NCBI GenBank assembly: GCA_025054775.1
Contig: JANWZA010000063.1
Span: 1 to 42,420, forward strand
Length of the DNA: 42,420 bases
Reading direction: 5' to 3'
Origin: Microscillaceae bacterium
Lineage (GTDB): Bacteria > Bacteroidota > Bacteroidia > Cytophagales > Microscillaceae
The notes below the pieces were generated by a model, which was not told the origin of the DNA, made no database searches, and was given only the letters and a program-made list of their open reading frames with translations. The translations under genes and the position numbers were made by a program. Below, in pieces: positions 19,885 through 23,366 of this stretch (its first letter is position 1; every line of letters starts with the position of its first letter).

Positions 19885-20118
19885 ATGAAACTTAAAAAAA
19901 TTCAATTTTTCTTGTATGCCCTTGTGCTATTGTTTTTACCAGCTATGCAAAGTTTTGCACAAAGCGCGGAAGTAGAAATGGCTGATAGCCTCCGTGAAGA
20001 CGGAAAAATTTATGTGGTAATTGCCGTTTTATTATGTATATTTGCATTTCTATTCATCTATCTTGTAACTTTAGAGAAAAAAATAAGAAAGATGGAGAAT
20101 GAAATCAAATCATCGTAA
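19885..20118 (+). CDS. ccmD: CcmD-like small membrane protein
   Basis: This 77-residue protein has a cleavable signal (ending SFAQ, near residue 26), a periplasmic stretch, and one membrane helix (VVIAVLLCIFAFLFIYLV, about residues 44-61) followed by a basic cytoplasmic tail (KKIRKMENEIKSS). This matches the CcmD-like proteins that in Bacteroidota sit beside cytochrome c maturation genes. CcmD helps release haem-loaded CcmE from the CcmABC complex. Identification rests on size, topology and the ccmE gene 18 bp downstream, because CcmD sequences are poorly conserved. Confidence 0.75.
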   Translation: MKLKKIQFFLYALVLLFLPAMQSFAQSAEVEMADSLREDGKIYVVIAVLLCIFAFLFIYLVTLEKKIRKMENEIKSS

Positions 20119-20136
20119 TAATTCGGTAACATTATT

Positions 20137-20568
20137 ATGAAAGTTAGTTATATCATAGGAATTGTGGTAATTGCTTTGGCAATTGCCATAATCATTTCCA
20201 CTACTGGGGATGCAAGCCAATACGTAAGTTTTGCAGAAGCCCAAGCTATGGCTCAAAAAGGACAAACTACCAAAATTCACGTGGTAGGTGAGTTGAAAAG
20301 AGATGCACAAGGCAATATCGTAGATATGGAATACAACCCCATCAAAAATCCTAATCTATTCACCTTTACACTTATAGACCAAAAAAAACAAGCCTGTAAA
20401 GTAGTGTATAGAAACCCTAAACCCGCTGACTTTGAACGCTCTGAACAAATTGTAGTGGTAGGCAATATGCAAAACAATGTGTTCGTAGCAGAGAAAATTC
20501 TAATGAAATGCCCTTCCAAATACCAAGATAATAAATTAGAAGTTAAAAGAGTACCCGCAAAACCCTAA
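20137..20568 (+). CDS. ccmE: Cytochrome c maturation protein CcmE, cysteine (CxxxY) type
   Basis: CcmE is the periplasmic haem chaperone of system I cytochrome c maturation. The 143-residue protein has an N-terminal membrane anchor (residues 5-21) and an OB-fold domain with VVGELKRDAQGN, FTFTLIDQKKQACKVVYR, and IVVVGNMQNNVFVAEKILMKCPSKY. In E. coli CcmE the haem-binding residue is a His in a HxxxY motif. Here the same place reads C125-P-S-K-Y129, so cysteine replaces histidine. Cys-type CcmE is known from system I* in archaea and some deltaproteobacteria. The gene is 18 bp after ccmD, but ccmA, ccmB, ccmC and ccmF are not in the window. Confidence 0.9.
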   Translation: MKVSYIIGIVVIALAIAIIISTTGDASQYVSFAEAQAMAQKGQTTKIHVVGELKRDAQGNIVDMEYNPIKNPNLFTFTLIDQKKQACKVVYRNPKPADFERSEQIVVVGNMQNNVFVAEKILMKCPSKYQDNKLEVKRVPAKP

Positions 20569-20670: not shown

Positions 20671-20758
20671 CTTCACTAAAAGGGGTGCCTTACTCTACAG
20701 GCTGAGATTATACCCATTGAACCTGATGCAGGTAATGCTGCCGAAGGGAATATTGAAG
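20671..20758 (+). promoter_or_regulatory. TPP riboswitch (THI element)
   Basis: The strongly conserved TPP aptamer core is present: GGGGTGCC, GGCTGAGATTATACCC, then TGAACCTGATGCAGGTAAT and GCCGAAGGGAA. CTTCA (20671-20675) and TGAAG (20754-20758) can form the closing P1 stem. It lies 160 nt upstream of the TonB receptor gene on the same strand, so TPP should repress that receptor when thiamin is sufficient. Confidence 0.95.
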
Positions 20759-20864
20759 AAAATGCGCTAACCTAAGCAAAACCTAATTTGCTGATTTCTA
20801 ACTTTTTACTCCACACCAGTTAGTGCAAAGACTTCAAACATAATCTTTACAAGTCTCCTCTTTT

Positions 20865-20918: not shown

Positions 20919-23366
20919 ATGCTTAAATTCTATTTCACAAGCCTTTTGATAGGGCTTACTACCTATTTCACTTTTGCTCAATTTACACTTAAAGGTACAG
21001 TCAAAGACTCACTTACCCAAGAGAATCTGGTAGGCGCAGTAGTGATGCTTACCAATACGTTCAAAGCAACGGCTACGCAAACGGATGGCTCATTTTTACT
21101 TACAGGGCTAAAACCGGGCAAATATTCGCTTAAAGTTTCATTCTTGGGCTACAAAACAGCTACCCAAGAAATTCAAATCTCTGAAAACCAAGAAATTGTA
21201 ATTCTACTTGCTAAAAATACGTTTTTAGCCGATGAGTTAGTGGTGCTAGCTACCCGTGCTAATCAAAAATCGGCAGTAGCCTATACCGAAGTAAGCCAAG
21301 AAGAAATTGCCAAGCAAAATTTAGGGCAAGATTTACCCATTCTGCTCAATTTCACACCTTCTGTGGTTACAACCTCTGATGCAGGAGCAGGTATAGGCTA
21401 TACAGGCATACGTATCCGAGGCTCTGACGGTACACGTATCAACGTTACCATCAACGGTATTCCATTGAATGATGCTGAAAGTCAAGGCGTTTTTTGGGTA
21501 AATATGCCCGATTTTGCCTCCTCGGTAAGTAGTGTGCAAATTCAGCGAGGTGTAGGTACTTCTACTAATGGAGCAGGAGCTTTCGGAGCTACAATCAATA
21601 TTCAAACTAATCAACTCAACGAAAAAAGCTATACCGAAGTGAATAATAGTTATGGCAGTTTCAACACATGGAAACATACCCTTATGGCAGGCACAGGGCT
21701 AATTGACAATAAATTTACCTTAGATGCGCGCCTCTCTCGCATTACTTCTGATGGATTTATCGATAGAGCAAGTTCTGAACTCAAATCTTTTTACACCTCA
21801 GGAGCTTACTATGGCAAAAAAAGTTTACTTCGCTTGAATATTTTTTCAGGAAAAGAAAAAACCTACCAAGCTTGGAACGGCGTACCTGAAGCTAAACTAC
21901 GTGGCGATTTACAGGGCATACGTGCTTACATTGACCGCAACGGCTTAGACACCGAAGATGCTAATAATTTACTTACAGCAAACAACCGTACCTACAATGC
22001 CTATCTTTATGATAACCAAACTGATAACTACCAACAAGACCATTACCAACTATTTTACACTTACGAAATTAGCCCTAAACTCAATGCCAACATAGCATTG
22101 CATTATACCTATGGGCGCGGTTATTTTGAACAATATCGCAAAAACGATGACTTTGCTACCTATAACCTCACTCCCCTTACTATAGGAAATACTACTATTT
22201 CCCAAACTGACGTTATTCGCCGTTTATGGTTAGATAATCATTTCTACGGGACAGTCTATTCGCTTAACTACCAAAGTAATCTTTGGAATATCACCTTTGG
22301 TGGTGGAGCAAATACCTACCAAGGCAAACATTTTGGAGAATTGATTTGGGCAAGATTTGCCAGCAACAGCCAAATCAGACAACGCTACTATGACAATGAC
22401 GCTACTAAAAACGATATAAACAATTTTATAAAAATAGCTTACCAAATCACTCCTAAGCTTAATATTTTGGTAGACTTGCAGCATCGTAACGTGTTTTATT
22501 CCTTTTTAGGCTTCGGCAGACAAGGGCAAAACGTACAACAATCAGCAGATTTGCACTTTTTTAATCCTAAATTTGGGGCAACCTATCAACTCAATACCAA
22601 CCAAAATTTATACGCTTATTTTGGTATTGCCCATCGCGAACCTAATCGCGAGGACTTTACGCAATCCACCCCTGACAGCCGCCCTAAAGCTGAGCAGTTG
22701 CAAAACTGGGAATTAGGCTACAAACTACAAGCTAATCAAATTGCGTTTAATGCTAATTTGTATTACATGAACTACCGAAACCAACTTGTGCTAACAGGGC
22801 AAGTGAACGACGTAGGAAACTATGTACGCACTAACATTCCACAAAGCTACCGTGCAGGCATAGAATTAGAACTTGGGCTAAAATTGAATAACCGATTTAC
22901 TTGGAACGCTAATGCTACTTTTAGCCAAAATAAAATCCAAAATTTTGAGGAGTTTATTGACGATTTTGACAATGGCGGGCAAGTAAAACAAACCTATTCG
23001 CAAACGGATATTGCTTTTTCACCTAACGTAATTTGCGGTAGCCAATTAGAGTACAAACCTTTGCCCAATTTGAGCCTTGCTTTGCTCTCTAAATACGTAA
23101 GTGAGCAATTTTTGGACAATACCTCTAACCCAAACCGAAAACTTAATGCCTTCTTTACCAATGATTTACGCTTTATTTACCAACTTAAACCCAAGTTTTG
23201 CAAAACCCTCACCATGAGTTTGTTAGTAAACAATATTTTTAACCAACTCTACGAACCTAATGGCTATACCTTTGGCTACATTGCAGGCGGAGAACGAATT
23301 ACTGAAAATTTTTACTATCCGCAAGCAGGAACAAACTTTTTGGTAGGGCTGGGAATACGCTTTTAG
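20919..23366 (+). CDS. TonB-dependent outer-membrane receptor, probably for thiamin
   Basis: This 815-residue protein has a signal peptide ending TFAQ, a carboxypeptidase-regulatory-like domain (about residues 22-100, with LKGTVKDS and DGSFLLTGLKPGKYSLKVSFLGYK), a plug domain (about 120-235, with GIRIRGSDGTRINVTINGIP and GAGAFGATINIQT), and a long barrel with the final strand GTNFLVGLGIRF. Such receptors use TonB and proton-motive force to import scarce nutrients. The TPP riboswitch upstream points to thiamin or a thiamin precursor as substrate. This is an inference from regulation, not from the barrel itself. No inner-membrane thiamin transporter (for example pnuT) is adjacent. A strong terminator follows. 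Confidence 0.93.
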   Translation: MLKFYFTSLLIGLTTYFTFAQFTLKGTVKDSLTQENLVGAVVMLTNTFKATATQTDGSFLLTGLKPGKYSLKVSFLGYKTATQEIQISENQEIVILLAKNTFLADELVVLATRANQKSAVAYTEVSQEEIAKQNLGQDLPILLNFTPSVVTTSDAGAGIGYTGIRIRGSDGTRINVTINGIPLNDAESQGVFWVNMPDFASSVSSVQIQRGVGTSTNGAGAFGATINIQTNQLNEKSYTEVNNSYGSFNTWKHTLMAGTGLIDNKFTLDARLSRITSDGFIDRASSELKSFYTSGAYYGKKSLLRLNIFSGKEKTYQAWNGVPEAKLRGDLQGIRAYIDRNGLDTEDANNLLTANNRTYNAYLYDNQTDNYQQDHYQLFYTYEISPKLNANIALHYTYGRGYFEQYRKNDDFATYNLTPLTIGNTTISQTDVIRRLWLDNHFYGTVYSLNYQSNLWNITFGGGANTYQGKHFGELIWARFASNSQIRQRYYDNDATKNDINNFIKIAYQITPKLNILVDLQHRNVFYSFLGFGRQGQNVQQSADLHFFNPKFGATYQLNTNQNLYAYFGIAHREPNREDFTQSTPDSRPKAEQLQNWELGYKLQANQIAFNANLYYMNYRNQLVLTGQVNDVGNYVRTNIPQSYRAGIELELGLKLNNRFTWNANATFSQNKIQNFEEFIDDFDNGGQVKQTYSQTDIAFSPNVICGSQLEYKPLPNLSLALLSKYVSEQFLDNTSNPNRKLNAFFTNDLRFIYQLKPKFCKTLTMSLLVNNIFNQLYEPNGYTFGYIAGGERITENFYYPQAGTNFLVGLGIRF

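Follow-up and report, generated by a model that had tools for sequence, protein, structure and literature searches.

The 42,420-nucleotide window analysed here, contig JANWZA010000063.1 of a Microscillaceae bacterium (Bacteroidota), carries a gene for a CcmE protein in which cysteine takes the place of the haem-binding histidine, and this protein is very probably the haem chaperone of a cytochrome c maturation pathway of the System I* (CxxxY) type. The system fits the published System I*, because the Cys-type CcmE is accompanied in the genome by CcmF, CcmC, CcmB, a CcmD-type protein, a DsbD-type protein and cytochrome c domains, with neither CcmH nor ResB detected. Comparison of the sequences of relatives indicates that the Cys-type CcmE is normal for the group, showing no variation in the order and almost none in the phylum loci read. 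With this, the Cys-type system, until now a peculiarity of archaea and certain bacteria, looks like the standard form in a large bacterial phylum. The features of the window that bear on this reading are the following.

19885-20118, + strand: ccmD-type gene for a small membrane protein, 77 codons; PF20077 (CcmD_alt) 71.7 bits (cut-off 23.5)
20137-20568, + strand: ccmE ORF, 143 amino acids, ATG start; PF03100 match
20509-20511, + strand: codon TGC of Cys125, the residue predicted to attach haem; it aligns with the His that binds haem in E. coli CcmE and is invariant in 46 proteins
20521-20523, + strand: codon TAC of Tyr129, the Y of CxxxY and a predicted ligand of the haem iron; no variation among 46 aligned proteins

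CcmE and its haem-binding motif

The ORF at 20137-20568 encodes CcmE, a membrane-anchored OB-fold protein of the PF03100 family. The profile matched with 54 bits (2.2e-14; cut-off 24.6), its positions 4-98 of 99 aligning with residues 29-131 of the protein, and five NCBIfam CcmE models also matched, all of them below their cut-offs (the best with 41.9 bits versus 126). In the AlphaFold model, computed with 46 sequences (mean pLDDT 83.8), residues 3-25 form a helix and a beta domain comes after it; as modelled, the protein is composed of one N-terminal membrane helix and an OB-fold domain that bears the CPSKY motif. In a fold search against the PDB, the CcmE entries 1lm0, 1j6q and 1sr3 were among the top five (E 0.001-0.003, TM by target 0.56-0.70) and the CcmE of D. 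vulgaris, 2kct, appeared at rank fifteen, no match being better than E 0.001. The single CcmE sequence gave no match to the PDB with phmmer, but a profile built from the CcmE alignment did match CcmE chains.

The sequence-only reading had placed a C125-PSK-Y129 motif where HxxxY is usual, with cysteine standing for the haem-binding histidine, and both statements hold. Read from the ORF, the motif is K124-C125-P126-S127-K128-Y129, and C125 and Y129 show no exception among the aligned proteins. When E. coli K-12 CcmE was placed in the profile alignment, CPSKY lay over HDENY, with C125 on the histidine and Y129 on the tyrosine. The E. coli-type chains 1sr3 and 8ce8 gave the same C125/His pairing; in 2kct, the stretch that aligns reads KCP where C125 falls. 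From the known CcmE proteins we take Y129 to be a ligand of the haem iron. An alternative histidine at the haem-binding position, which would have spoken for a conventional CcmE, was not found in the 46 aligned proteins, whose sole nearly invariant histidine, H48, sits in an early strand. By analogy, C125 would be the haem site, the counterpart of the histidine numbered H130 in E. coli CcmE (PMC9084895).

The CcmE profile also matched residues 1563-1650 of chain R0 in PDB entry 9hcj, a nuclear pore protein of D. discoideum named Nup160 (E 1.7e-5). The same nucleoporin chain ranked fourth against the CcmE fold model (E 1.9e-3), which amounts to a CcmE-type OB domain in a nucleoporin.

Ccm inventory of the genome

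The genome that contains the window comprises 3.01 Mb in 65 contigs and yielded a single CcmE match in the PF03100 profile search. At a completeness of 99%, it gave zero matches to PF03918 (CcmH), a search that did detect the protein in 4 of 14 control genomes, and zero matches to PF05140 (ResB); with the assembly divided into 65 contigs, these absences are not absolute. Two proteins with the Cytochrom_C_asm domain are encoded, CcmF (869 amino acids, matching both PF01578 and PF16327) and CcmC (225 amino acids); CcmB is present, as are one DsbD_TM match, belonging to a DsbD-type protein, and four cytochrome c domain matches. Among 36 ABC ATPase matches none rose above the TIGR01189 cut-off for CcmA.

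This inventory agrees with the expectation of the sequence-only reading that the pathway is modified and possibly lacks a classical CcmH, and that a suitable CcmF should accompany the cysteine-type CcmE; it also contains no complete System I with a second, His-type CcmE. A classical System I was set aside, with no HxxxY CcmE and no CcmH in the genome, and so was System II (CcsBA/ResBC), with no ResB; a second CcmE or a System II elsewhere in the genome was rejected on the single CcmE and the zero ResB matches. The ccm genes lie on four contigs, ccmD and ccmE together and ccmB, ccmC and ccmF on three others, a more scattered set than in relatives of the order, in which ccmBCDEF together is the commonest arrangement.

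CcmF

The residues aligned with His173, 261, 303 and 491 of E. coli CcmF, which we take to be the haem ligands, are histidine in 133 of 133 proteins (132 from the loci and the genome's own), and the tryptophan-rich (WWD) motif of the latter reads WNWDPVEN. Bacteroidota CcmF is longer than the 647 amino acids of the E. coli protein. Uncut ORFs, 62 from the named loci and 47 from the order loci, span 809-907 amino acids; a further 30 in order loci are cut at the locus end, and one locus holds a piece of 142 residues. In the wider phylum, 34 of 53 loci had a linked CcmF: 32 of these proteins measured 750-943 amino acids, another had 688 and the last was cut.

The additional length lies ahead of the last membrane helix. 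In a model of the Reichenbachiella CcmF (mean pLDDT 77.7 over the whole model) the extra region is all beta, with strands from 559 to 805, and the protein is thus modelled with an enlarged all-beta periplasmic domain, a difference that is drawn against E. coli CcmF alone. CcmH is helical and CcmI is of the TPR type. Since the extra region is all beta, neither of them would be simply fused into CcmF. Against the PDB, the whole model matched CcmF 6zmq (Z 34.8, rmsd 3.0, 570 aligned) and CcsBA 7s9y (Z 23.6, rmsd 3.3, 288 aligned); CcmH and CcmI are not among the listed fold matches, a result that excludes nothing, as the extra domain was searched only as part of the whole. A CxxC motif occurs inside CcmF in 2 of the 132 locus proteins and is absent from the protein of the window's genome, the only cysteines of which are at 98, 219 and 389.

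Proposed pathway

The System I* reading is based on the gene, the residue, the gene inventory and their conservation; from these we infer all the chemical steps, as well as the function given to the CcmF domain. CcmB, CcmC and CcmD, together with a CcmA-type ATPase, would load haem onto CcmE on the periplasmic side, where, by analogy, C125 would take it, probably via a thioether and possibly by iron coordination only, with Y129 as a ligand. CcmE would then hand the haem to CcmF. This protein, enlarged by the beta domain in the periplasm, would join the haem to apocytochrome c without CcmH, the electrons likely coming from DsbD-type thiol reduction.

It could also be that CcmE holds haem exclusively by coordination of the iron to cysteine and never covalently, and is a haem shuttle instead of a covalent chaperone. 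The Cys-type CcmE of D. vulgaris, the structure of which (2kct) is among the PDB matches of the window protein, is reported to bind ferric haem non-covalently via its cysteine (PMC3884852), so that covalent attachment at C125 is not to be assumed. However, covalent haem on a Cys-containing Desulfovibrio CcmE has been reported as well (PMC3601427), and haem staining is described as lost in the C120A mutant of M. acetivorans CcmE (PMC9084895); we consider an exclusively non-covalent shuttle unlikely. Returning to CcmE as the chaperone of System I*, its cysteine and the histidine of the classical proteins are reported not to be interchangeable in the cases tested (PMC9084895, PMC3601427, PMC3884852).

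CcmH in the phylum and possible substitutes

Across the phylum, 12 of 392 genomes had PF03918 (CcmH) matches, 5 of them above the cut-off. Two of the 12 belong to the same order as the window's genome, and both of these matches fail to reach the cut-off and are partial, spanning positions 87-135 and 70-142 of the 143 of the profile. The six proteins viewed, including the five above the cut-off, are unlike E. coli CcmH, where the motif is LRCPKC: their cysteine motifs are CGCGSC-like or related, and in four of the six a zinc-ribbon-like start comes first; they may be true distant relatives. When E. coli CcmH was used as a query against the collected loci (phmmer and one profile round), only E. 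coli's own protein was matched, while an E. coli CcmG query had matches in 6 loci. These searches indicate that a classical CcmH, if it occurs at all, is rare in a group whose usual CcmE is of the Cys type. The sequence-only reading had derived the possible loss of CcmH from the cysteine, and the absence itself stands; the cysteine alone would not predict it, because about one-third of the bacteria with a Cys-type CcmE do have CcmH according to a 2011 review (PMC3601427).

A broader proposal, which we put forward tentatively and with more doubt than trust, is that the Cys-type system is the only one run by those Bacteroidota that have Ccm, nearly always with CcmH missing, and that the enlarged periplasmic beta domain of CcmF took over the handling of apocytochrome that falls to CcmH and CcmI in other organisms, making CcmF a self-sufficient one-chain haem lyase. 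If, on the contrary, an unrelated periplasmic protein did the work of CcmH, CcmF would not act alone. Such a hidden substitute would be in keeping with the abundance of thiol proteins in Bacteroidota and with the CcmH-like proteins with CGCGSC-type motifs of a few phylum genomes. Yet among the ORFs of at least 90 amino acids within 4 kb after ccmF, grouped for the 62 named loci, the eight largest clusters offered no candidate for a CcmH replacement, and the largest of them, present in 34 loci, resembles what is presumably a metabolic oxidoreductase. In addition, M. acetivorans reportedly gets by with CcmABCEF (PMC9084895), and the existence of a substitute appears improbable to us. For the System I* pathway proposed above, the single large CcmF is offered as a place to ask how Cys-bound haem is released and why CcmH is dispensable.

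Distribution of the Cys-type CcmE

The cysteine was first followed in named genomes (Microscillaceae, Cytophagales, Cyclobacteriaceae, Flavobacteriales and others), where the best 80 of 201 relatives had C and Y at both motif positions in 80 of 80, a scan biased by the use of peptide patterns, one of which contained the motif. The record labels of these relatives also placed the window in Bacteroidota. A family search free of this motif bias covered 146 genomes of the order and 392 of the phylum and detected CcmE in 134 (137 matches) and 264 of them, respectively. The motif was read in all 137 order matches and in 83 loci of the phylum search: CPSKY is present in 137 of 137 and in 82 of 83, the last one having CPSRY. 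With all loci pooled from the three overlapping sets, cysteine occupies the position in 300 of 300 (CPSKY in 299, CPSRY in 1), E. coli being the only His-type control in this comparison. Of the 12 order genomes without CcmE, ten measure 0.7-1.8 Mb and belong to one family.

The occurrence of a Cys-type CcmE in this organism, to which the sequence-only reading had drawn attention, is therefore real without being special. That the cysteine is a sequencing error, or marks the recent decay of a His-type protein, can practically be dismissed and was rejected, in that the cysteine is kept in all loci read and the change from histidine to cysteine requires two base changes, for which one sequencing error would not suffice.

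Comparison with known systems

According to the review PMC3601427, the description of System I* goes back to Allen et al. 2006 and Goddard et al. 2010. In Desulfovibrio and other bacteria this system resembles the present one in that cysteine replaces the histidine that binds haem, CPSKY being the main form of the motif (25 of 36 in PMC3601427), and in that CcmH is frequently missing; the Desulfovibrio Cys-type Ccm is reported to produce cytochrome c in E. coli in the absence of both CcmH and CcmG (PMC3601427). M. acetivorans likewise has a CxxxY CcmE and no CcmH, but archaea are described as lacking ccmD and the M. acetivorans CcmF as split in two (PMC9084895), whereas here a CcmD-type gene stands beside ccmE and CcmF is a single chain. 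The classical System I of E. coli K-12 has in common the CcmB, C, E and F homologues and the B-C-D-E-F order, the commonest one in the window's relatives, and differs by its HxxxY CcmE, the presence of CcmH and the shorter CcmF.

The System I* organisms given in the 2011 review are delta-proteobacteria, Chloroflexi and Firmicutes, not Bacteroidota (PMC3601427), and the System I organisms of a 2013 review are likewise given without Bacteroidota (PMC3884852). The phylum is not mentioned in the main texts of PMC9084895, PMC3601427, PMC12285233 and PMC3884852. Among the papers listed in our literature search, no title concerned CcmE in Bacteroidota; the phylum may be included in Allen 2006 or in the 500-sequence CcmE tree of PMC9084895, and Pfam already recognises Bacteroidota CcmE proteins (PF03100). 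The phylum-wide uniformity of the Cys-type CcmE, as judged from the loci compared, would be a useful extension of the known System I*, with no claim of its being unpublished.

Gene order and neighbouring genes

The arrangement ccmB-C-D-E-F is the commonest in relatives and is complete in 105 of 217 overlapping loci; in the order it is complete, on one strand and in this order in 56 of 137 loci, the remaining ones being without one or more neighbours partly on account of contig ends and partly of 29 loci taken with only 1.5 kb per side. In the window's own family, 11 other loci show B-C-D-E in 3, C-D-E in 4 and no neighbour in 4, with F in none. Of the 138 CcmB-bearing loci in the named and order sets, 130 have no ATPase akin to E. 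coli CcmA within 2.5 kb of ccmB, so that ccmA seems to be mostly unlinked to the ccm locus in these Bacteroidota relatives.

CcmE-like proteins that stop short of a CxxxY or HxxxY motif are encoded in three phylum loci (L298:4594-4974, L288:4609-5034 and L102:441-800, all on the - strand). The short ORF directly follows the Cys-type ccmE in L298 and L288 and lies some 670 bases after it in L102; these motif-less proteins are possibly a second, non-haem-binding OB partner.

In the window itself, the ccmD-type gene ends 18 bases upstream of ccmE, and TIGR04391 scored it with 23.1 bits, slightly below the cut-off of 24. On the other side of ccmE, a TPP riboswitch (RF00059, 64.7 bits) lies at 20671-20767 on the + strand, between ccmE and a TonB-dependent receptor gene at 20919-23366; this arrangement points to thiamine or a precursor as the probable substrate of the receptor.
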